Source: Branchiostoma floridae
Lineage: Eukaryota; Chordata; Leptocardii; Amphioxiformes; Branchiostomatidae
Assembly: GCF_000003815.2 (NCBI RefSeq)
Contig: NC_049987.1
Coordinates: 14,106,266-14,170,265 of the forward strand
DNA: 64,000 bases
Reading direction: 5' to 3'
Notes under the pieces: model-generated
The model's input: the letters and a program-made list of their open reading frames with translations, nothing else
Databases searched by the model: none
What the model was told of the DNA's origin: nothing
Part shown: piece after piece, positions 550-59,706 of the stretch
Layout: the number at the start of each line of letters is the position of its first letter
Position numbering within the stretch: position 1 is the first letter of the stretch
Made by a program: the position numbers and the translations under genes

Positions 550-4595
<4,046 letters not shown>

Positions 4596-5758
4596 CTTGA
4601 TGTATAGCGTCTGAAATGATGATAAGGAGATGTTTATTACAATTTGTTTCACATGGATTCCATAAGTGTTACTTACACTAGCTTGATCTTGGCATGAAAA
4701 CACAAGACATGTGCTGTCGTAATACGTTGAAATTGTCCTTTTAATCTACGAGCAAATGTTAAAACTTACTTATTTTGCCGTTCTTAACATGCCTTTGGAA
4801 CTGTTTATTTGTAAACCTCGTATTTATTTGTAAAGATCGCAACAAAGCCCCCCTCCCCTTTCATTGAATGGAGACCGAAGAGAGACTGAATTCAGATTTT
4901 ACAACATTATCATTGCTCCCACTACCCGCTAACTCACTACTGTAGTGGCCCAAGGGCTATAGAAAAGGGAACGGGCACTGCCCCTATACACCTAAAGCTG
5001 AGGTCAAGTCAAGTCAAATTTTATTGCACATCATTTGTAAAACGGGTACAAACGTAAGGCAAACTTAAGTATATTGTATAAGACAAATAGCTACATGTCT
5101 ATAGTAACAATAGTCTAATACTGTAACAATAAAATGTAGATTCTAGTCTATGCAATATTGGAAGAAACAACATTGTACAAAATTCAGAATGCTGTGCCAG
5201 ACTACTTTCTGATAACATATAGTGCATACTACACCCAGGTTCTATTTTATGCATACAATATTGAAAGGAGACACAGGGAGGATCTTTAAATCTTGCAGGT
5301 GTTTGAAGGATTTCAATTGTCATCTAGATTAATATTTATGACTTGGTCACATGAGGTCCACGAGACTCCGGTTGGTGAATATTTAACAAAGGTGCCGCAG
5401 GTAGGTGTGCCGTTGTTTGCTGAGGTAAAAGGTCGTCTGTCACGAGGACCTCATGTGGCGGCAAACACCTTCGGTGAAACGTGTACATCATAGACACTGC
5501 ATAGAACTATTACTACACCACTACAGAAGGGACACTTACAAAGTTTAAACAAAGTTTTTCAGTAAAGGAATTTTGTTCAAACGTCGGTCTACACATTTCG
5601 ATGAACAGACCTTCCATTATCTCAACTTTTGACCGAGCAGGGGAAGATACATTTGGACTTTCTGAATGTTGACTCTCACTGCAATGTTTTGTTGAATACC
5701 TGTAGCGTTGTGGTGCGTTTGATCGTATGAAGGGTTTCGGAATACATACTGTCATTCT

Positions 5759-11900: not shown

Positions 11901-13874
11901 TGCACACCTGCTGGCCTTGTAGCGCCCATCTCCGAGTCCCTGCTTGAGAGTCGGGGCCGCACTCGTCTCAACCGGAGCATGTACGCAGCAACAATGGCGT
12001 TTACTACCTGGGGTAACATGATATTTCTTTCAGCACCATTTCCAACTTCCGCTTCTTAATCTATTCATAGTTATTGAAATTTTGTTCATTTGTTCATCGT
12101 TACTTTGATCATTACTATTATCGTCATCACGGTTGTCTTTGCTAGAGTTATCTTTCCTTAGTATTGTTGTAGTCTTTCAATATTATCATTATCTCAGAAG
12201 GTGGGATCTACGCCTCTTTGTTTTATCTTGTGTGCTGATTGTATAGCTACACCGGAGGCCGGTGATGCTACGGGACCGGGTGAAGTGAGGTTTTGTTTGA
12301 TCTTATTACTGATTCTGGCATGATGTTGTCTGCTTCCTCAAAGTTTAAATAAAGGAAGAAATATTGTTACAAATACCAAACCGTCTGTGGTAACAACACT
12401 ACACTGAAAGTGGTTTGGCGCTAAATGTGTCTGTTTGGGAAGTGATAAACTTTTAAAAAGTGTTTGGGCAAAGTGATTACCAAGTCAAATGGAGTACAGG
12501 TTATCCTTGGTACGCCGTACCTATCAAAGTAGACGTATACAAAACGAATACACGGGTAGCTAAGCAATAAAACCACGGAATTCTTTCTCCTGTAAAAATG
12601 GAGGGGTGTCTGTCAAGAATTTAGCTTACATTCTGTCATTTTGCATGTTTAAGCTAGCTAGTTGTAAACGCGAGGCTTAAAGTGTTTGTACAAAAAAGTT
12701 TTGTCATGTAGCACTTGTACCCATTTTCTATTGCAAATATCGTCCAAACAACTAAAACCACAGCTTTAGTGCCTTTTTACACAAGGGTTTAACACAAGGG
12801 TTTTACACACAAAAAGTTGGCCTTTCAGATTGTATACGAATATCCTCTCTCGCCTGTTTTTGCATGTACTAAAATTAGGTTTCAGCCGATCGACTATGTT
12901 TGAAAAATATATCCTAATCGCCTTGTAGAGTACGTCAGTTTGATAGACCTAAAAGTCTACCTTTAACATGGATAACTCAATCGCAGTACCACGCACAATA
13001 TCGGCTGCTCCCTTGAAGCGTAAAAGTAGGCTAACAATGTTATATCACGCGTATTTCAGTGAGTGCAAATAAATATAATATTCCTCTCTTTTTCATCAAC
13101 TGTAATAATAAATCAATGACAGGCGTTGTGTTTTGTATATCTTATAAAAAATACACTAATAACAGAACTCACCACTATGATGAAGAGGCACAGAAACATG
13201 TTGACAACGTTGATGTACACAACCACCCTCCCGCTCGAGCTTTCGTCAGTCCAGTCGAACATACAGTACGAGTTGGGATACTGGGGTACGTTCTGAACCA
13301 AGCCGAACAGGGGGAGGACAGAAACAACTATCGTGTAGAGAAAGATGAAAATCAAGGCGGGATAGATTTTCGACTTCTCGTAACCAAAATGGCGGTTGTA
13401 GGAGAAGGGGTGCAGCAATGCCCAGTATCTATCGATCGACATGAGGGCTACGATCATTTGGGACGCCACGCTAAGCGCTAAGAGTACCGTGGCGTTAAAG
13501 TCACACATGGCTTGGTTAACGTAGATTTTGAAATAGTAGGATAACGCCAGTGGCGCTACGCCAAGTGAGCAGTTTAGAACGTCCGTCCAGGAAAGGTAGA
13601 TCAGCAGAAGGTTTGGCATGTTTGGTCTTTGTCGGAAAACTTCTCGGCTCACGACGATGATGAGAGAGTTGCCGAACAATCCAACAACTGCAACTATGAT
13701 TATTGACGTCGAGGCCAGCACCCACACCGTTTCTCCGAGTTCTTCTCTGTCCACTCCTAACGGAAAATCAACGCCCGTAACATCTGTGCTTTCCGTCGTC
13801 AAGTTAGCATCTGGTGAGTTTTCCTCAGGAGTTCTAAGGGAGTACCCTCCTTGGTCAGCCATGGCATTTGCCAT
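8975..13874 (-). CDS. Class A GPCR, prostanoid receptor-like
   Basis: A seven-transmembrane receptor of 372 residues. Four coding exons on the complement: 13173-13874, 11892-12007, 11545-11617, 8975-9202 (1119 nt, consistent phases, GT-AG borders). Exon 1 encodes an N-terminal region with the sequon NLT, TM1 (GNSLIIVVS), TM2, TM3 ending SIDRYWALLHPF, TM4 and the second loop. Exon 2 carries the end of TM5 and a basic third loop, exon 3 TM6 (VAFFCSWFLF), and exon 4 TM7 with NPVIY and a Cys-rich tail. Prostanoid-like traits: the loop QYPNSYCMFDW resembles the family's QYPGTWCFxxW; TM7 has an Arg (GARLMTFNSIINP) where prostanoid receptors keep a ligand-binding Arg; and an intron falls at the end of TM6, a known shared site in prostanoid receptor genes. 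The DRY-type motif differs from the usual prostanoid ERC. The ligand is inferred, not shown. Confidence 0.85.
9475..9668 (+). repeat. 38-bp minisatellite, five copies
   Basis: Units start at 9475, 9513, 9551, 9589 and 9627 (gcacacatcacccaaacgac...); the last is truncated. Near-identical copies imply recent expansion. It lies in the last receptor intron (9203-11544). Confidence 0.95.
9849..10027 (+). repeat. Dispersed repeat fragment related to 42013-42190
   Basis: Shares ordered blocks with the left part of the 42013-42833 element: 'cgatcgg.agac.agt', 'tagggatcg', 'aggagtc' and 'cgaaac.tgttcttaaca'. It is probably a degraded copy inserted in the receptor gene's last intron. Confidence 0.6.
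11757..11881 (+). repeat. GGAT/GAAT tetranucleotide tract
   Basis: Degenerate gatg/gaat/ggat repeats in the receptor intron 11618-11891. Confidence 0.9.
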
Positions 13875-13916
13875 AACTTATGCCCGGGTCTGTCAGAAGA
13901 TCTGTATAAGTATCTG

Positions 13917-19041: not shown

Positions 19042-22743
<3,702 letters not shown>

Positions 22744-29469: not shown

Positions 29470-34330
<4,861 letters not shown>

Positions 34331-36959: not shown

Positions 36960-40767
<3,808 letters not shown>

Positions 40768-41731
40768 CGTGCCTATTGTCTTCTTACCTGTCGGGGTCAA
40801 AGGTGAGAAGAAGATTACAAGACGACCAACCATCCCCTGATCTGATTTTATGGCAAATGATAAGCGAGGTACACCTTGGGATTTTAGCAAAGTTAGCAGG
40901 GTTATCCTTTTGCAATTCAGAGGGATGCGATTTGTGTTGTTATGTCTTTCTTGTTCTTTTTAAAGAGAGATTCGGAACGGATTCAATCTATGACGTAAGC
41001 CTATAGCTACTTTGTTCTCGTGAAACGGTCCTTGTTTGGTGTTCATACAAATCACCTTGCAGCAATGTCACGCCAGGTGTTTGAAACAAGGGATGAATGT
41101 TTTGCCATAACATTTTCAAAAATTTAATGTGCATATTTCTTTTTCATGCGCATTACAGTAGAATTTTCAATGCACAAGAACTGATGTGTACACGGTCCTG
41201 TTACACTCGTCGATTGATGTTAGTACGATTTGCCGTTTGTTTCAAGCTGATGATGTTGTAGAGGCATTAAGCAACCTGTGACAGAACCAACTACCGACTA
41301 TGATCTAAAAAAGCTTTGTCCTTAAAATTAGATATTTAAGTTGTGTGCAAAACTAACCCAGGAATACTCTGGGTGTGCGATCGTGCGTCGTGTGCGTGTC
41401 CTGGCCTTTCGTCTAGAAAAGAGGAGTTATCAGACGGCCTAGAATCATCTACGGGTTTATAAATGCGGACTAGTACTAGTGCATGTGCTGACTGAATAAA
41501 TAGGTGACTACTCCACATTTTACCGAGACAAACAAGAAATCCTGCCCGCTGTACAATCCTTACATGTGAAAGCATTTCGACTTTGGTAAATAGCAGCTAG
41601 AATACTGAACAAGAACATCGTTTGCCACACAAAGAACGCAAAAGAAATAGAATCTGTGTGACTGCGTTTGTGAGAAATCACGAATTCCATTTTTGTAAGT
41701 CAAGAAAGAAGAAGAAACTCGAAAATCTTAC

Positions 41732-45099: not shown

Positions 45100-45131
45100 T
45101 ACAGTGAAGGGAATTAAACAATCGTCGTAAA

Positions 45132-45614
45132 ATGGCCAAGGTTTCTCCTCGAAGAAAGAACGACAACTTGAACGAGTTTAAGGCGATCATCGCCGAGGTG
45201 GAAGCCTTGCAGAGGGAAAATACGGAGCTACGGGCACAGCTGGAAGAATTTACCCGCCAAGCCAAAAAGGTGATCGAAGGGAAGGAGAATGGGGCCGAAC
45301 TCGACGGAACGTCACCCGTCATTCTAGCCGACGAGGGCACGAAGGTGACCGACGGAGACACGAAGGTGACCGACGGGGATACGAAGGTGACGGACGGGGA
45401 CACGAAGGTGACCAACGGGGAAACGAAGGTGACCGATGAGGACGAGAAGGTGATCGACGCTGAAGACGAAGAAAAGCTTCAGGAGAAGGTGGATAAGATG
45501 ACCGAAGAGAACAAACTGTTGAAGATTTTGTTACACGAGGGGTCTAACCTGGTAACAGACTTCAGGAAACTCCTTGAGGAGAACAAACAGCTTAAGGGTA
45601 GCATGAAATACTAA
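45132..45614 (+). CDS. Small intronless coiled-coil protein with heptapeptide repeats
   Basis: 160 residues in a single frame with a good start context (AAAATGG) and a stop at 45612-45614. Family not recognised. Residues 13-50 form a charged heptad-patterned coil (NEFKAIIAEVEALQRENTEL). Residues 70-110 are TKVTDGD-type heptapeptides (four near-exact, then TKVTNGE, TKVTDED, EKVIDAE) encoded by a 21-bp minisatellite. Residues 113-157 form a second coil ending in LLEENKQL. That phrase resembles the LMEENRRLE motif in the filament-like gene 3.2 kb downstream on the same strand, so the two may be related or co-regulated. ATTAAA follows at 45654. Probably cytoplasmic; role unknown. It could instead be an expressed retrocopy or an alternative exon. 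Confidence 0.6.
   Translation: MAKVSPRRKNDNLNEFKAIIAEVEALQRENTELRAQLEEFTRQAKKVIEGKENGAELDGTSPVILADEGTKVTDGDTKVTDGDTKVTDGDTKVTNGETKVTDEDEKVIDAEDEEKLQEKVDKMTEENKLLKILLHEGSNLVTDFRKLLEENKQLKGSMKY
45339..45450 (+). repeat. 21-bp coding minisatellite
   Basis: About five units of 'acgaaggtgaccgacgggga' plus one base, in frame inside the coiled-coil gene. Confidence 0.9.
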
Positions 45615-47351: not shown

Positions 47352-47451
47352 NNNNNNNNNNNNNNNNNNNNNNNNNNNNNNNNNNNNNNNNNNNNNNNNN
47401 NNNNNNNNNNNNNNNNNNNNNNNNNNNNNNNNNNNNNNNNNNNNNNNNNNN
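47352..47451. other. Assembly gap (100 N)
   Basis: Run of 100 N, the usual placeholder for an unsized gap, in the spacer upstream of the filament-like gene. Confidence 1.
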
Positions 47452-48784: not shown

Positions 48785-51700
48785 ATGTCCCACTACGCCA
48801 GCCAGCTGAGGGGGGACGCTCAGGTCCCGATTGGGACGCGGTACACCGTACACAGCAGCAGGATTAGCGGCAGCCAGGCGGCTTCCGCCGGGGCCAGCTA
48901 CAGCGCGACACGAGTGAAACAGAGCAGCCATTACAGCCATGGCGTGGCCAGCGCGAACGCCTACCATTACGAGAGCGACCTCACGGATCGCTTCAACTCC
49001 TACGCCGTCAAAGTGCGTCTCCTGGAGGACGACAACAGGAGGATCGGGATTCGTAACGAGGAGCTGGAGATAGTTATCAAGGAGCTGAGAACCAAGCTGA
49101 CCGAGCTCAGCCATTTAAACGGCATCATGTCCACCGAGCTGGAGTTCTATCGTGGCGAGAATGGGAAGCTCGCACACGTCATTGAAACGCTGGAGCTGAG
49201 GAATTCCGGCTTACAGTCGCAGGTGAACGAAGCCATAGAGGCCGGCGAGCGGGCAAAGGCGAGGATCAACGAACTGATGNNNNNNNNNNNNNNNNNNNNN
49301 NNNNNNNNNNNNNNNNNNNNNNNNNNNNNNNNNNNNNNNNNNNNNNNNNNNNNNNNNNNNNNNNNNNNNNNNNNNNNNNNNNNNNNNNNNNNNNNNNNNN
49401 NNNNNNNNNNNNNNNNNNNNNNNNNNNNNNNNNNNNNNNNNNNNNNNNNNNNNNNNNNNNNNNNNNNNNNNNNNNNNNNNNNNNNNNNNNNNNNNNNNNN
49501 NNNNNNNNNNNNNNNNNNNNNNNNNNNNNNNNNNNNNNNNNNNNNNNNNNNNNNNNNNNNNNNNNNNNNNNNNNNNNCTACTTGAGCAGATCAGCTCGCT
49601 GACGGAAAGCAAACGTCTGCTTGAGCTAGAGATCATCAAATTTAGAGAGGAGTCGATGAACGCCAGCATCACCATCCACCAAACTTCCGAGAGCTATTCC
49701 GCATCCCCATCGAGTGACCTGAAGGATAGGGAGATAGAGGACCTGATGAACGAGCTGCAGAGGATGAGGGACATGAATGACAGCCTGAAGAAGGACATGA
49801 CGACCATGGAGCTGAAGATGGAAGAAGCCGGCAGTAGAGATGCGGCAGGTGGATTCGGAGTAGGTGGATTCGGAGTGGATCAGGGAGGCGTGTCCATTGA
49901 AGACGTCCAGAGGAAGGACAGGGAGCTGGACGACGCCAAGGACGAGCTAGCAAGGTTGAAGGCAGAGCTGGACAAGGCGAACGCAGACAACATGAGGATA
50001 CAAGGAGACATGGGGAAAATGAAAATGCAGCTGGATTCCACACAAAAAGAGATGCAGAATGCTCAACAAAATGCCAGAGCATCGGCCCAGAAAGAAGGAG
50101 GCGAAGCCAAGAGACTCCAAGGCGAGCTGGACCGACTACGTGCCCAACTGGAGGCAAAGGACAGAGAAGCTAAGGCCTTGAAGGACAAGGTAGACGGTCT
50201 CAATAACGAAAAAAGAAATCTCCAACGCAAGTTGGAAGACACGGAGAGAGAGGCAGGAAAACAGAGAAAACAGATGGATGATTTGAAGAGACAGAAGGAG
50301 AGAAGTGCAAGTCAAAGTGCAGAAGGAGAGAAGATGAGACAAGAGAACAGGGAGCTATCACTGAAGATGAGCAGGTTCGAGTCGCGGATAGGAGAGCTCC
50401 AGTCTGAGCTTGATATCGCCCTGAGGAAGATTGAAGAGTTGGCTAGAGAAAATGAAACACTGGATGCTGACAATGAAAACCTGAAGTCAGAGAGAGATCT
50501 ACTGAAGAATCGTCTGGCCGACAAGGAAAGCGAGCTACAAGACGTCCTAGATGAGTTGGCGAGGCTACGAAAGGAGAGGCTAGAGTTTGAGACGATGACG
50601 AAAGAGGTCAGTCATACGGAGGTCGCGTTCCAGGGCAAGGTCCAAGACTTGGAGGATCAGCTGGCCAATCTTCAAAGGAGGCTGAAAGACGCTCAGGCAG
50701 AGAACGACGCCAAGGATAGGGAGCTGAGAGAAGCACAGATGGATCTTGAGAGCGCCGAACGTAAGATAACCATCATATCGGAGGAGAAAGGTAGATTAGA
50801 GAGCGACTCAGATAGCATAAAAGATGCAGAGAAGGGCCTGGAAGATAAGTGCTTCACGCTGGAGAGCAGGTGCACTTCCTTACAGGCTGAGCTAGATGCA
50901 CTCAGGAAGCAGCTTCAAGACAAAGACGACGCTCTTAAGGAAGTAGAGGACGAGAGGGCGAGGCTAGAGATAGAGAAAGGAGACATAGAGAACAGGATGC
51001 ACGGGATGGAAAGAGAAATGAAGAAGATCAAGGTTGACCTAGACAGCGCGAGGGGTCAAGTAGAACAACTGTCAGGACCAATGCAGGAACAGCAGTCGTC
51101 ACTCAGCCAATTCGAACAGAAAAACGTCCAACTTCAGAAGAAGANNNNNNNNNNNNNNNNNNNNNNNNNNNNNNNNNNNNNNNNNNNNNNNNNNNNNNNN
51201 NNNNNNNNNNNNNNNNNNNNNNNNNNNNNNNNNNNNNNNNNNNNTTCCAGGTTCTTTCTTAATAGTAAATTGTGTAAACCGCTAAAACTACCATACATGG
51301 CCTGCTAGCATGCTGTTTCATACTCGGTCTGGGTGTATACATGTTGGTAACTTGAAAGAAGTCCTTGTGTCAATGTGTGCAATGGGGATTGCATTTTCGG
51401 AGCTTGAAGTATTCGAAATTTCAGGAGTACTGATCACAACATTTGTACTATCAACAATAGTACAACAGTAATCGACGTCTTTACAAGCGATACCATATAA
51501 TCATTTAGCTCCTGATTGTCTGGGAATGGCCGTAACTGTGACAGGAAGTAAGCTGAAAAGGCCTAATTGAATCACGTACCATTACATCCGTGAACGTGAC
51601 TTTTAAGTCTAATCAAGTCTGGAGTGAGGGGCAGGTTTTTGTTGTACAGGACTTGCAACCGGAATCCATCAGAGAAATGGACGAACCTTTTTGTTGTTTT

Positions 51701-54700
51701 CTATTGTCCACCTAAAAGTTTCTTGCAACGTTTTCTTTCTATTCTTACACCCCTCCCCCAATGTTTTGTGCGTTTTGTAAAAATCTCTTGGCCCGTATGT
51801 CGACATACCTTCCTGGAAGGGGATAAGCGCTTTTAGAAAAAAAACACTTGTTTTTTGTTAAAGGATTTGTTATATATATTGTTGCATGCAACCCTGATAA
51901 TTATAAATGCATGCAGCAAATGTTCACAAAAACGGACTTCCGGTAGGCGTGGGCCAAGTATAAGTTAGAGGGAGTATGGGTGGGACATGGTCATATCCGG
52001 TATTTCAGGCATGCCAAATATTCGTTCTCTGGTCCGGGCAAAATGTCACAAGTGTCGTTGGTAGACCTGGATACCTGTTTATTCATGCAATAACAATTAG
52101 ACTTCGAAAACGCCCACCGAATAAACTTTATCCAGCTGTGCAAAAGTGACTAAACAAAGTAACACTTAGTTAAACATTATGTTAAACGTTAGAATGTTAG
52201 GTGAACTGTATTTGTTTGTTTGTTTGTTTATTCATTTATTTATCCATGGGTGACAGGGGTTTATCTTGGTGCTTTTTATTGTATCGGGGGTGGGGGGTAT
52301 ACATATACATAAACATTAGTATCAAATTAAAAAAAGTAATATTACATGTGAAAATTAACATTAACGCATATACCTGTCAAAACAAATCATAGCAACTTAA
52401 TATCATCTTACGATATAAGTAAATAAAAAATGTGGTGTCTATATAACGAATATATATATAGAATATATGAGATAAATACATAGATATAATTAACCACATA
52501 TGTAACTACTGGTATACATTCCTTCAAAAATATGTGATTCGATTACATGACATTTACCTCCATTATTTCTTTCATACCGCAGGTGAAAGTAACCGAAGGT
52601 GAGGAGGCCATTGTCAAGGTGCAGAGTCTGTCCTTGAAGACATCACACCTGGAGAAACAAGTAGAGATGTACAGGGTCAAGCTTGAAGGATCTTCGAAGG
52701 AGGTAAGTAGTACAAACCACTGACAAAATCGCATCGCCAAACTTATTGCATAGCACTATCTACACAGAGAATGTCAATTCTGTCGAGTCTTTCCATTCAC
52801 TTACATGTAACTGCACAAAGTTATCTTTGAGAATTGCTAAGACTTATTTCTTACATGAGATGATATGTAAACACAATCTAAACTGACAAGCACAGTTGCA
52901 CAGAACCTAGTACCTAATCCATACAGATAATATGACACTGAGATGTATACATGTAGCACATGTATGAGGGGCCTTATGTATCACAATGTCGTCTGTTGCG
53001 AATGGGATTTAATCTCGCGTCTTCTCGCTATATTTCACAGATAAAGGAACTGGAGAACGAGATCGAGAGGCTGATGGAGGAGAACAGGGAGATGAAGAGG
53101 ACCATCATCCGGCTGGGTGATCAGGACCAGTACAACCTGGAACAGGTAAGCTATAAAGCATTGTGCATCGTACAGTATAAAGGGGGTGGCGAGGAGAGGA
53201 TGCAATCGGCATGGTAAAAAGAACTCCGATATGTTGTGTATCCACAATATACTTTGACATGAGTTGACATTTGCCAGATGATTTTGTCGACTTGCTATGG
53301 TGGTATATAAAACAGATGGTCGACCGCCGAAAGTTACTTAACACGACTTTCCTCACCTCATTCAGGTGTAAAAAGGGGTACCTGGGGAGGTAAAAGACAG
53401 TGGAAGGAGAGAGTTTCAATACCGTATCCTAGACACAGTGAATAACAACTTACTATCCCTACGGCATCAAAAAGGCTAGGGGCTACCTTTACATTTACCA
53501 ACGGCCAAGCAGATTGAAACACAGTCCTGAGGAATGTCAGGTCGACCTAACTAAACCAAGCATGACAAACAAGTAAATGTAACAAAGCACGGGAGCAGAC
53601 TACTTCTAGCAACGTTAGAAGAGTTGATTATTTTGGCCCCGGGACAAATAAAAACACACAAAAGGGGGCGGGGCTGGACCAGCGACAAACAACAACCACA
53701 GTATTCATAAACTTCAATTCAATCTATAGAATGGAAAGATAATGCTAATAATGGCTGTTTTATATGCAACACGATTCGCTTGATACGAGTAAATTCTAGT
53801 TTTTGCTACACAAATAGTGATATGTAATTTGAATCAAACGTTTAGAGGGGGTACCGGTAATGTAAAGTCCACGTATGTATATGTTAAATGATCAGTTGAT
53901 GATACTGTGAGGACCTATCAACACTACAGGTGGGTTTTTGTCATAGAAACGGCACTAAATGTTTTGGGTAAAGACCTGTATGTAATCACATTTACGGGGG
54001 ACCTTTTCAATACNNNNNNNNNNNNNNNNNNNNNNNNNNNNNNNNNNNNNNNNNNNNNNNNNNNNNNNNNNNNNNNNNNNNNNNNNNNNNNNNNNNNNNN
54101 NNNNNNNNNNNNNGTACCTTTTGATTGACACGGACTTGTTGACAGCCTGCAGGCATACTTTCTCAAATAACTGCAGTAATTTTCTCCCTCTGACAGCTTC
54201 TCTTCTGCTTTGTGTAAATCGAGTTGTGGAATTCGCGTAAGGCCGACATGAGAGGTTCCATTATGTCACAAATACCTTAATGACACCAAAATCATGATAA
54301 ATCGATTACAAACATTGGACGAGTACAAACTCCAAAACATACAGACATAATTAGCATTTGTGTAAGCAAATACACCAGTTGATTGTTCTTTCCTCATTAT
54401 TTAAGAGGGGTCATTTAGTAGCTTCTTACAAACGTGCAGTGTTTTTTTTAAATATCTTTGTTTAACACTGCCTGGCAAAGTTTGAAATCGTGCCGTCAGG
54501 ATTTAGACACGTGATTGCTGCAGCCATCACTTTACCCATTTCATATTGAGAAAGTTGTGAAAATTCAGGCCTATAGCATCATCCAGACTGATAGTTACAT
54601 AGCGTTTCTATAACTGCGCCGTTTTTGTCTATAGGCTATTAGACAAATTGACGATCTGTCCGGCCGAATCGACAACCAGCAGATTGATGACGTCAGAAAG

Positions 54701-57700
54701 ATGGTGGCATCAAAAGACTTGCAGGTATGACCTCTGACCTCCATTGCATGATAGTGTCATGATAGTGTCATTGGATTGATGTACTAGTATATAAGGTATA
54801 CTGTACACGAGTATACATGTATGTCGTAGATACCTAATACCAGCATATTTCATAATCTTAATTTTAATCAAGAATGTGTACTCAAGAGCTCCGTCTATGC
54901 GAACGTTTAGCCACCAGTACCGTAAATGTAAGGCTTTTCCATGCTACAGGATAAAAAGGCAAGATAGCTCTTGCTGTACTTATCGTACTGTGTATCGCCG
55001 TTACAATCTATGGTCCATATAATAGATGTACTGTTTTTCTTTCCCTTCTTTCTCTCTTTCTCTCAATACTCCCAGGTGAAGACTCTCACTGCCCAGATCG
55101 AGGTTTTAATGGAAGAAAACAGACGTCTTGAGGCTTCGGTTCTATCCTTCCGTGACGGCGCTAGCTCTCCTCCTGGCTCATCAACACAAAACGGGCCTTC
55201 AAGTCCACCTCTCCTTGACCTTGATTCCTAGCCCTATCTTTCTTAGCTACACCCTGTTCTTTTCCTTCCAGTAGATGCAGCCAGAGTAGACTAGACCATC
55301 ATTCATCTGTACCCACGACAAATTCCTTTCTGTTGTAGATTTTAGACTAAATCACCATTCCACAGCATAAAAATCTTAAAAGCATATGTGATGTGTCCTT
55401 CATATCACTTCTTTTAGGTTAAATTGAACCCTCTCCACATTGGTTATATTTAGTTTTACACTGCTCTATGCTACAGGCAAGAAACATTAACCTGCTAATA
55501 TTTTGACAACGCTTTAGGGGCGGCGCCAGCCTGTTCTTTGTTTGTAGTGATTTTGCTTCACCTGCATGCTAATCTACTGCTTGTCGGCCTGTCGCGTAGG
55601 TGAGGCAGCTCGGGGAGCAGATCAAAGTGCTCATGGAGGAGAACTCGCGGCTAGAGACAGCTTTAATCAGCGCTAACACCACCACACATACCACCACCAC
55701 CATCCTCCAGAACGGTGGTGTGTCCTCCCATGGGTCTAGTGTTGGGAAGTGGTCAGGGGGGAACACTACCATTTCAGGGGGGACGATGAACTTCACGACA
55801 CAACAGCATGGCGGATCGACGACGTTCTCACAACATGGTGGATCAGTGAGTCAGCACAGCGTGACGTCACATCAGAAACAAACGACCAATGAGATGCACG
55901 GAGTGGCGACGCATGGACATCACGTGACACACCTACAACAGGGAAAAGCAGTGTCAAGCTCCACAATGACAGGACAGGTGGGAATTACTAAAGTACGATC
56001 AGAATCTTTTGAACGGCAGAATGCAGCAGTGGTTTCGGGGGCTTTCGAGCAAGCTGGGTTGCATAATGTAAAGGTGTCAGCTACAGGGGCAATGCAAAGT
56101 AAAACGCAAGCAAGCAAGGTGTCGGGCAGCACTATCGCCGCAGAAAGTGTCCTTGACAATTCTCATAAAACAGAAACTTCCACTGTTACCCTATCCAAGG
56201 GTGTTGAGAGTACTGATACCAAAGTCGCTTTGACCTCTCTGTCGCATGAGTCTCATTCAAGTGTTGACACATCTTCCGTCAATATAGTTACACACGCTAC
56301 AGAACACGTTACTACAGTCACCGATCCTTCTGAGTTGTCTGAAAGTGTAGGTGTAGCACAGAAAGCAGTTGAGAATACTGCTATCTCTACAGGGTCTGGT
56401 ACAGAATCAGTCACCATAATTACAACATCTTCTGAAACTACTGACGAGGCATCGAAAGTATCAGGTGTGTTGACAGAAAACATAACCGTTGTCCTAAATG
56501 AAACAGATACAGGTGCCATGAGTATAGTTACTGGGGAGTCAGACACAACTTCCAAGGGCGCTGACAAAGTAGCAGAAAAATCCCAAAGTTCTAGTGTTTT
56601 ATCGTCAGGGGAAGAGGTGACAGTGATAGTGCGTGCACCTGAAGCTACTACAGATGTTGTGACAGAAACATCGATGACGTCAGTGGTAGAGTCAGAGCAG
56701 GCAACTTTGTCGTCTGTAAAATCACAGGCAATTGGAAATGTAACAGTGAGCAACTCATCAGTAGTAGGAGGTGAGCAAGCTGCTATTTCAGCCGTTGGGT
56801 CCCAGTCCGTGTCAGTCGTTGGGTCCCACTCTGAGTCAGTCGTTGTGTCAACATCAGAGTCAGTCGTTGGGTCGCAGTCTGAGTCAGTTGTTGGGTCTGT
56901 ATCGGAATCAGTTGCTGGGTCCCAGTCGGAGTCAGTTGTTGTGTCTGTATCAGAATCAGTTGCTGGGTCCCAGTCGGAGTCAGTTGCTGAGTCCCAGTCC
57001 GTGTCAGTCGCTGGGTCCCAGTCCGTGTCAGTCGTTGGGTCAGAATCAACAGTTGTGTCTATATCGGAGTCCGTCGGTGGGTCCCGGTCCGAGTCAGTTG
57101 CTGATTCCCAGTCTGAGTCAGTCGTTGGGTCGCAGTCTGAGTCAGTTGTTGTGTCTGTATCGGAGTCAGTCGTTGGGTCGCAGTCTGAGTCAGTTGTTGT
57201 GTCTGTATCGGAGTCAGTCGTTGGGTCCCAGTCTGAGTCAGTTGTTGTGTCTGTATCGGAATCAGTTGCTGGGTCCCAGTCCGAGTCAGTTGCTGATTCC
57301 CAGTCTGAGTCAGTCGCTGGGTCCCAGTCCGTGTCAGTCGTTGGGTCCCAGTCTGAATCAGTCGTTGTGTCTACATCAGAGTCAGTCGTTGGGTCCCAGT
57401 CAGAGTCAGTCGCTGAGTCTAAATCGGAGTCAGTCACTCAGTCCGAATCTAAATCAGTCGTTTTGTCGTCCGATACAGTGACTGAGGGGTCCGCAATGAC
57501 ATTATCAGATGGTAGCACAAAACAGATTGACGCAGTGACAGAAGAGTCGGTGGCTGTAGTTTCGCAAACTGCAGCGGTATCAGAAACACATACAGAAAAT
57601 TCTACTGTGGTGACAACATTAGAAAGTATCCATGAGGTCACATCATCTTCAGAAATGAAAGATTCTGTGCAAGCTTCTTTGGTGTCAGGCACGGCAATGC

Positions 57701-58740
57701 TTTCTGAAGCGGTGGCATCAACCTCTTCTTCGGCTGAAGCGGTGAAGGACTCATCGGAATCGTCACAGAACATTGATACTTACGACTTCGTTACCAACGC
57801 ACAGATGGTGACATCAGGTGAGACACACAGTACCACTGTCATGGGGGGAACAGTGACATCATCAACTACCGCTGAAAAAATCGTGGTGAACGTGCCGACT
57901 AGCAAGAGTGTCGTTGTGCATGGAGCAGGAGAGCTCGCAGCTGGGAAGAAGATATCAGTAAAAGTGCCACATGCACAAAGTGTCGCGGTACCCAACGCTT
58001 CCGGTGGTGGTCAAACGATCAATGTCAATGTTCCCATGTCCACTAATCAAACCGTCACTACTCACGAGGCACAGAAGATCATGGTGAACGTTCCCATGGC
58101 AACATCGCACACAGCCCACACCACGTCCAGTGAGAAGATCATGGTGAACGTTCCAATGGCAGCATCGCACACAACATCAAGTGAGAAGATCACGGTGAAC
58201 GTTCCCATGGCAACCACCCAGACCGTCACAACTCACACAGGTTCGGATCAGAAGATCATGGTCAATGTCCCCATGGCAACAGCGCATACGACTCACACCA
58301 CGTCCAGTGAGAAGATCATGGTGAACGTTCCCATGGCAACCACGCAGACCGTCACGAATCAGGAGCACCACGTGATGGTGAACGTCTCCGGAGGAGGAAC
58401 ACAGACCGCAGCAGGCGGCGCGCACGTGGCAATGGCAGGTGGTCACGCGTCAGCATCGACGGGGCAAAGCGTCACGGTCCATGGAGGACACGCGGCAACA
58501 GGAGCAGCGCAGAAGATCATGGTCAACGTGCCAATGCCGGGTGGATCGGAAGCACACACCGTTACGGTAGGGGGAGGAGCAAGCCAGGCAGCCGGTCAGA
58601 AAATCATGGTCAACGTGCCCACATCGGCGGTAAGCACGGGCACCAGCGGGGCACAGAAGGTCATGGTCAACGTACCAGTCACGCAGACTGTAACTGTGTC
58701 TCCAAAAGTTACAGTTAATGTTCCTGTTACCAAAAGCTGA
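48785..58740 (+). CDS. Intermediate-filament-like long coiled-coil protein
   Basis: Coding segments: 48785-49279 (165 residues), gap, 49578-51144 (about 522), gap, 52583-52702 (40), 53041-53145 (35), 54635-54724 (30), then alternative last exons 55076-55231 or 55600-58740. The later exons are all phase 0 with GT-AG borders. The ATG at 48785 follows GCCTCC; the frame upstream has no ATG. Residues 1-62 form a Ser/Ala/Tyr-rich head as in intermediate filaments. DLTDRFNSYAVKVRLLEDDN (65-84) matches the start of coil 1A (LNDRFASYIxKVRFLEQQN). A very long acidic/basic heptad coil follows, interrupted by a Gly linker with two GGFGV units (about 49846-49890). The rod-end consensus (IATYRKLLEGE) was not seen; it may be in a gap or absent. 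Probably a cytoskeletal filament or filament-associated protein. Total length is uncertain because of the gaps. Confidence 0.75.
49280..49577. other. Assembly gap inside the filament-like gene (298 N)
   Basis: 298 N. The frames on each side are open, but 298 is not a multiple of three, so the gap holds an intron or its size is only estimated. Confidence 1.
51145..51244. other. Assembly gap inside the filament-like gene (100 N)
   Basis: The coding frame is open to the last base before the N run; after it the sequence looks intronic. The exon end and possibly further exons are missing. Confidence 1.
54014..54113. other. Assembly gap in an intron (100 N)
   Basis: Lies between the exons at 53041-53145 and 54635-54724; an exon could be hidden in it. 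Confidence 1.
55076..55231 (+). CDS. Alternative last exon A: short tail
   Basis: After a pyrimidine-rich acceptor (CCCAG at 55071-55075), the frame encodes VKTLTAQIEVLMEENRRLE, then a Ser/Pro-rich end LLDLDS and a stop: 51 residues. It is phase 0, compatible with the donor at 54724. Its first 19 residues align without gaps to the start of exon B, which implies exon duplication. No donor precedes the stop, so use of this exon ends the protein here. Confidence 0.7.
   Translation: MKTLTAQIEVLMEENRRLEASVLSFRDGASSPPGSSTQNGPSSPPLLDLDS
55600..58740 (+). CDS. Alternative last exon B: 1046-residue repetitive tail
   Basis: After the acceptor (GCGTAG) the frame runs open for 1046 codons. It begins VRQLGEQIKVLMEENSRLE, parallel to exon A. 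Next comes a Ser/Thr/His-rich region, then (residues about 397-627) a Ser/Val/Glu repeat of 8-residue units (SESVVGSQ), then a Ser/Thr spacer, then (about 757-1046) some 13 copies of a K-I-M-V-N-V-P-M unit joined by Thr/His/Ser linkers. Such a tail is unlike vertebrate filament tails except in being long and repetitive. Phosphorylation or O-glycosylation of the Ser/Thr runs is possible but only inferred. One uninterrupted frame over 3.1 kb despite heavy repetition argues for real coding selection. Confidence 0.75.
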   Translation: MRQLGEQIKVLMEENSRLETALISANTTTHTTTTILQNGGVSSHGSSVGKWSGGNTTISGGTMNFTTQQHGGSTTFSQHGGSVSQHSVTSHQKQTTNEMHGVATHGHHVTHLQQGKAVSSSTMTGQVGITKVRSESFERQNAAVVSGAFEQAGLHNVKVSATGAMQSKTQASKVSGSTIAAESVLDNSHKTETSTVTLSKGVESTDTKVALTSLSHESHSSVDTSSVNIVTHATEHVTTVTDPSELSESVGVAQKAVENTAISTGSGTESVTIITTSSETTDEASKVSGVLTENITVVLNETDTGAMSIVTGESDTTSKGADKVAEKSQSSSVLSSGEEVTVIVRAPEATTDVVTETSMTSVVESEQATLSSVKSQAIGNVTVSNSSVVGGEQAAISAVGSQSVSVVGSHSESVVVSTSESVVGSQSESVVGSVSESVAGSQSESVVVSVSESVAGSQSESVAESQSVSVAGSQSVSVVGSESTVVSISESVGGSRSESVADSQSESVVGSQSESVVVSVSESVVGSQSESVVVSVSESVVGSQSESVVVSVSESVAGSQSESVADSQSESVAGSQSVSVVGSQSESVVVSTSESVVGSQSESVAESKSESVTQSESKSVVLSSDTVTEGSAMTLSDGSTKQIDAVTEESVAVVSQTAAVSETHTENSTVVTTLESIHEVTSSSEMKDSVQASLVSGTAMLSEAVASTSSSAEAVKDSSESSQNIDTYDFVTNAQMVTSGETHSTTVMGGTVTSSTTAEKIVVNVPTSKSVVVHGAGELAAGKKISVKVPHAQSVAVPNASGGGQTINVNVPMSTNQTVTTHEAQKIMVNVPMATSHTAHTTSSEKIMVNVPMAASHTTSSEKITVNVPMATTQTVTTHTGSDQKIMVNVPMATAHTTHTTSSEKIMVNVPMATTQTVTNQEHHVMVNVSGGGTQTAAGGAHVAMAGGHASASTGQSVTVHGGHAATGAAQKIMVNVPMPGGSEAHTVTVGGGASQAAGQKIMVNVPTSAVSTGTSGAQKVMVNVPVTQTVTVSPKVTVNVPVTKS
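56791..57480 (+). repeat. 24/48-bp coding repeat (SESVVGSQ units)
   Basis: Degenerate 24-bp units group into 48-bp higher-order units; three near-identical 48-bp units run from 57121 to 57264. The period is a multiple of three, so copy changes keep the frame. The long antisense frame over this region is a by-product. Confidence 0.95.
57868..58740 (+). repeat. Coding repeat of KIMVNVP units
   Basis: About thirteen copies of [KQ]-[IV]-[MT]-V-N-V-P-[MT], spaced 15-30 residues. Nucleotide copies such as 'aagatcatggtgaacgt' are highly similar. The unit looks like a short beta-strand followed by a disordered linker; no domain is recognised. Confidence 0.95.
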
Positions 58741-59044: not shown

Positions 59045-59050
59045 AATAAA
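59045..59050 (+). terminator. AATAAA, proximal poly(A) signal of exon B transcript
   Basis: First canonical AATAAA, about 305 nt after the stop codon. A second lies at 59707-59712; either or both could be used. Confidence 0.45.
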
Positions 59051-59706
59051 ATTTACGACATAAGCTAGCCATAGAATAGGTGCTTATTTGTGGTACCAAA
59101 CCAATAATTAGCTTGTCAGAAAGAGGAACATAATAAACGTTTATGCTTCAACAATTGTATGTTGTAGCCCGTTAAAACAATCGTAATCGGCGAGATACAG
59201 AACTGTTGAGAAAAGTATTTTGGCATGGCGTTTACCTGCACAACAGAGTTAAGAAGTTGAATAATAACCCAGGCATTTTTTGTCTTTCCCCTGCCATTCC
59301 CAAGTAGATTGGTATCACGATTTGGCCAGATACAAATGTAATACAATGGGGCCATACTAGTACTGCTAGCTGCGTATAAAAAGTATTTTCATTGACCATG
59401 TGTTAACATCTGGAGGTGTATTGGTGATATATTTTGAAAATTGAACAGTCGCTGATTTGAAGGAGGTGTTGGTAAGCCTGTATCATCATAGTTTTGGGTT
59501 TAGGATGATGGTGTATAGTTTTATTTCATAATAGTCAATACTTGCATATGGGAATTGCAGTAGACATTCTGTGAAAATATATATGTGCACACGATAAAGC
59601 TGACTACTGGCAAAGTTTATACTTAAAATCATACGAACCATCTTGGTAATGACGACATGACTGTCCAAAACAGTGACTATTCAATTTTGTTTTTCTAATA
59701 TCAATG

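Follow-up and report, generated by a model that had tools for sequence, protein, structure and literature searches.

Two candidate alternative last exons with related heads, and tails of 51 and 1046 residues, in an intermediate filament-like coiled-coil gene of the lancelet Branchiostoma floridae

Alternative tails on one rod are already a known kind of arrangement. In tropomyosin, the alternative last exons 9a-9d are duplicated terminal exons that complete the coiled coil in alternative ways, and the resulting ends are similar in length, unlike the two considered in this work. Among intermediate filament (IF) proteins, the section of the GFAP paper cited here describes how GFAP delta arises when exon 7a, with an acceptor and a poly(A) signal of its own, substitutes for exons 8 and 9 (PMC8971704). 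The synemins (alpha, beta and L) are, in the cited section of another paper, IF proteins with very long tails that also include a splice form with a small and different tail (PMC7090255). The same section presents synemin as the sole alternatively spliced cytoplasmic IF protein, a statement contradicted by the cited section of the GFAP paper (PMC8971704). For both GFAP and synemin, these sections report that the alternative ends alter assembly and binding partners (PMC8971704, PMC7090255). Cytoplasmic IF proteins of Branchiostoma have also been described (Karabinos 2023), and the genome studied here holds a large Filament family, with 108 exon-level matches genome-wide. Among the matches listed, most are on contig C2, where a dense array of canonical Filament exons is found around 27.68-27.85 Mb.

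Here, we describe a gene in a window of 64,000 nucleotides of B. floridae DNA (the whole stretch analysed, C9:14106266-14170265), together with searches over the genome of 513,431,437 bases in 431 contigs. Our literature search recognised no description of this gene. Like GFAP alpha and GFAP delta, it would place two alternative C-terminal ends on one rod. Unlike GFAP exon 7a, which is not described as a duplicate in the cited section, the two candidate last exons found here, A and B, have related heads; moreover, their tails measure 51 and 1046 residues, and, in contrast to GFAP, the two isoforms are predicted from the sequence. The synemin case differs as well, synemin L being made, according to the section cited above, by exon skipping and a change of frame and not by two homologous last exons. 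Our main reading, to which we give a probability of about 0.5, is that A and B would be mutually exclusive last exons, both of them used, with the end of the rod kept and the tail swapped. The features of the gene are collected in Table 1.

Table 1. Positions (numbered within the window) of the exons of the gene, the repeats of tail B and the candidate poly(A) hexamers
Feature	Position	Strand	Remarks
Exon 1, coding part	48785..49279	+	ATG at 48785; Ser-rich head, then IF-like coiled-coil start (LTDRFNSYAVKVRLLEDDN)
Large coiled-coil exon	49578..51144	+	522 residues visible; N runs at both ends
Exon E	52583..52702	+	40 residues, phase 0; CAG acceptor, GTAAGT donor, donor score 7.68
Exon C	53041..53145	+	35 residues, phase 0; internal relative of A and B; donor score 7.19
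Exon D	54635..54724	+	30 residues, phase 0; donor common to A and B, score 4.21
Exon A	55076..55231	+	candidate alternative last exon; AG acceptor, phase 0; 51 residues, then TAG
CATAAA	55366..55371	+	candidate variant poly(A) hexamer after A; GT-rich stretch behind it
Exon B	55600..58740	+	last exon; AG acceptor, phase 0; 1046 residues, then TGA
24-base (8-residue) tandem repeats	56788..57435	+	in tail B; about 27 copies, SV[VA]GSQSE-like
VNV motif	57886..58740	+	in tail B; 12 copies, mostly KIMVNVPMA-like
First AATAAA after B	59045..59050	+	further AATAAA at 59132 and 59707

The positions, phases and stops of A and B had been proposed in an earlier, sequence-only reading of this DNA and were borne out, both exons opening in phase 0 behind an AG acceptor. 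The internal exons E, C and D each lie between an AG acceptor and a GT donor in the same phase. N runs occur only at 47352-47451, 49280-49577, 51145-51244 and 54014-54113. The second of them (298 bases) takes in the missing 3' end of exon 1 and, with the third (100 bases), breaks the rod, whereas none falls between D and B, so that the sequence from D through A to B is unbroken. Donors were scored with a weight table drawn up from general knowledge. On this scale the donors of E, C and D score 4.2-7.7, and the best donors in 19 overlapping stretches of intron, each as long as the interval 55077-55599, score 1.7-5.8; the best donor in that interval itself reaches -0.51. Without a good donor behind it, A should be terminal if it is spliced in, and the candidate arrangement of A as an internal exon joined to B was rejected, since no donor in that interval exceeds -0.51. 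The alternative-last-exon layout put forward from the letters alone fits all of this: A and B share one donor and one phase, each has its own acceptor and stop, and neither A nor the sequence after it offers a good donor.

The heads of A and B follow a single heptad pattern (V/I1, L4, I8, L11, N15, L/M18). Over the first 19 residues, the identities number 13 for A/B, 10 for A/C and 7 for B/C (14, 10 and 8 over 24 residues), and the corresponding 19-mer pair scores of 58, 49 and 40 were equalled in 0/5000, 0/5000 and 1/5000 shuffles. Within the coiled coil of the gene itself, none of 173,755 pairs of non-overlapping 19-mers is as alike as A/B. As a control, the 132,106 open 19-mers of a coiled-coil-rich region of 173.5 kb, with ~80 kb of coiled-coil ORFs downstream, were scored against A and against B; apart from A, B and C themselves, the best reached 37 and 36, and no further copies of the motif were found in these 173.5 kb. 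Random coiled-coil 19-mer pairs taken from 11 ORFs (19,818,032 pairs) include 401 that score at least 58 and 286 with at least 13 identities; our guess is that internal repeats account for such pairs.

Three leucine-zipper-like segments might resemble one another through convergence, without common descent. It is consistent with this explanation that A, B and C all show a canonical a/d core in which one a position is Asn and that B and C, once the zipper core positions are removed, agree at 3 of 13 positions, which is not significant (p 0.16). However, A/B and A/C stay significant outside the core (7/13, p 5.5e-5, and 6/13, p 7e-4, respectively), nothing comparable is present in ~9,000 residues of adjoining coiled coil, and the three matches all start exactly at the exon boundary, at residue 1 after the AG, in one heptad register. 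Because of this common start and register, we prefer exon duplication and regard convergence as very improbable. The claim of the sequence-only reading that exon duplication gave rise to A and B is well supported, with 13 of 19 residues identical and the top score among all the open 19-mers. The kinship with the internal exon C, claimed at the same time, holds for A and is weaker for B; given the faint B/C agreement outside the core, the link from B to C leans mainly on A.

Database searches with these short segments have a limited reach. A phmmer search with the 24-mer of A returned no match at E 10 from 177,635 PDB sequences, which makes a weak control because queries this short are poorly detected. 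In the whole genome, a query made of C, D and the head of B returned three matches, all of them the gene's own exons, and exon A returned a single match, itself. As the former missed A and the latter missed B, these searches rule out close copies only.

The similarity between A and B stops at residue 24. The remainders of the two exons show no similarity (719/2000 protein shuffles and 271/300 DNA shuffles do equally well), nor do the introns that precede them (37/300 shuffles), and a QNG common to both tails was rejected as a sign of homology past residue 24 on the strength of the same protein shuffles. In the aligned codons, positions 1 and 2 agree in 28/38 cases and position 3 in 8/19; dN is 0.42, and dS is incalculable owing to saturation. 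The early end of the similarity, together with the saturated synonymous divergence, indicates an old duplication, after which homologous flanks, whether introns or the rest of the exon, would not be expected to persist. An allelic or assembly origin of the pair was also rejected, with no gap between the two exons and 36/57 bases identical, which is too diverged for alleles.

From these elements, we propose that a zipper-like coiled-coil exon from the lineage of exon C could have been duplicated in tandem long ago, giving rise to the terminal exons A and B, which would then compete for the exon D donor at 54724. When A is chosen, the protein would end after 51 residues; when A is skipped and B is chosen, 1046 residues would be added. 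Each exon would rebuild the same last three heptads, so that the rod would end properly either way, and only the part past residue 24 would differ, being a short Ser/Pro-rich end in one case and a giant low-complexity tail in the other, which could space, cross-link or dock rods. Pyrimidines occupy 17/20 of the positions -23 to -4 before A and 13/20 before B, and the choice between a near strong acceptor and a far weaker one would set the ratio of the isoforms.

Exon A may also have its own poly(A) site. The interval from A to B (55232-55599) contains no AATAAA or ATTAAA, an absence expected in 75% of shuffles, and three variant hexamers are seen in it versus 1.1 in shuffles. A different outcome would be that A is spliced in without such a site and the transcript continues, leaving B as 3' untranslated sequence of an mRNA for the short protein. 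This would agree with the lack of a canonical signal between the exons, with the AATAAA hexamers that follow B (Table 1) and with the weaker acceptor of B by pyrimidine count, but the CATAAA after A and its neighbouring GT-rich stretch could serve as a site, and we find read-through rather improbable. It predicts, in any event, the same protein outcome as mutually exclusive last exons.

The synonymous codon usage of exon A is intron-like. Its first 24 codons score -1.16, the values being 3.49 for codons 1-24 of B, 7.97 for C, 3.05 for D and 4.24 for E; windows scoring as low as A make up 0.2% of the left-out 24-codon rod windows and 9% of the tail-B windows, and of 252 open intron windows, 71% match or exceed A. 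Exon A could accordingly be read as a relic, a true duplicate that is no longer spliced in and that leaves B as the sole working last exon. The absence of a canonical poly(A) signal before B points the same way, as does a model of neutral drift in A, in which the observed 28/38 agreement has p values of 0.33, 0.13, 0.04 and 0.006 at divergences D of 0.8, 1.0, 1.2 and 1.5, the third codon positions being fitted by D 1.0-1.2. A frame open over 51 codons has p ~0.09 under the same drift. With these values, selection on A is only weakly indicated. Nevertheless, that frame is open, the AG acceptor of A is intact with its pyrimidine-rich tract, A and B agree at the protein level despite their saturated synonymous divergence, and the region downstream lacks a competitive donor, all of which speaks against a relic. 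The intron-like codons and the neutral p values of 0.04-0.13 at the fitted divergence are the reason why we place the use of both exons no higher than stated above, and why we take the relic as a serious possibility, albeit one towards which we do not lean.

The rod itself had been called filament-like in the sequence-only reading, and a part of this description stands. Exon 1 contains an IF-like helix-initiation motif (LTDRFNSYAVKVRLLEDDN, read by eye), with a modest match, and an HMM built from seven coil-1A pieces taken from this genome detects the exon 1 ORF at E 5.6e-6 (best stretch 0.0022, among 1993 ORFs), the same HMM also matching other coiled-coil ORFs at 2.1e-4 to 4.1e-10. AlphaFold2 run without an alignment gives, for exon 1, disorder over residues 1-58 and one helix over 58-164. 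The Pfam Filament model (PF00038) scores exon 1 at 18.5 bits (E 0.0017), below its cut-off of 40, and at 15.3 bits with the N run entered as X, a gap that conceals some of the region. On their own, low Filament scores mean little, since 6/14 control genomes give Filament matches at E 0.01, with 0 above the cut-off. Unlike the Branchiostoma cytoplasmic intermediate filaments, the gene is absent from its own genome's Filament list at E 0.01, and an HMM of the rod end (11 pieces, YRKLLEGEE type) finds nothing in it, the best score being 1.9 bits in a gene where two N runs could hide sequence. In IF proteins this motif is expected once the rod has run for about 310 residues; the coiled coil of the window gene runs on for hundreds of residues. 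Given the missed Filament cut-off and the lack of a rod-end match, we call the protein IF-like and not a family member, with a putative filament function.

Tail B consists of 24 residues of coil followed by a sequence rich in Ser (204), Val (174) and Thr (133), with no Cys. Its octad repeats are predicted to be disordered by AlphaFold2 without an alignment, with a mean pLDDT of 32. Two candidate identities were rejected for the repeats: a phage-spike gp5-like beta-helix for the octads (56767-57480, VxGxxxxx-like), where Gp5_trimer_C gave 24 bits and E 4.7e-5 with a cut-off of 30.9 and no structure was predicted, and the MSCRAMM models (NCBIfam) for the Ser-rich repeats, whose scores are far below the cut-offs. 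A genome search with tail B produced 21 matches, two of them B itself or a shifted frame and the others down to E 3e-11, and a second search for relatives produced three. The putative relatives at five loci (L002, L003, L005, L055 and L056) were translated into repetitive, low-complexity frames, none of which was counted as real, and no convincing relative of tail B was found in the genome, Pfam or PDB (best PDB E 0.075). On the minus strand, an antisense open frame of 394 residues (TDSDWDPTTDSD-like) spans 56253-57437 over the octad repeats and is probably a by-product of the repeat.

Downstream of the window, C9:14174777-14227629 (L009, L011, L012 and L043-L045) holds a row of giant coiled-coil ORFs on the plus strand. 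Counting the window's rod exon, 11 ORFs that are 200 residues or longer and rich in E, K, R, D and Q sum to 9,075 residues. With the Filament cut-off at 40 bits, the model gives 43.2 bits at L045:5860-7626, 59.1 bits at L045:798-2591 (where PUMA_CC gives 70.3) and 25.5 bits at L009:4512-5912, and these downstream ORFs may form a local cluster of genes derived from IFs. Within the window, a 168-residue open frame on the plus strand at 45108-45614, with coiled-coil ends flanking KVTDGDT repeats, may be an exon belonging to another gene. The minus strand carries a rhodopsin-type GPCR exon at 13113-13877 (Pfam 7tm_1, 72 bits) and several copies of a papain-family (cathepsin L-like) gene, at about 2000-4700, 19400-22000, 30700-33000 and 37000-41000, recognised by eye from motifs that include GCxGG.

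The contrast in size between the two tails and the homologous cap in front of them are what is unusual here. A bolder idea, which we consider doubtful, is that the gene is one of a lancelet cluster encoding giant coiled-coil proteins derived from IFs and that its last three heptads would be a duplicated “zipper cap”, a socket exon where new tails could plug in behind a fresh cap without disturbing the rod, the splicing of A and B setting the fraction of rods with a brush of 1046 residues. If mutually exclusive use of A and B is true, tails that differ about twenty-fold in length would sit on two homologous exons that complete the rod, and the locus would show how a filament gene tests an extreme tail while retaining a safe short form.
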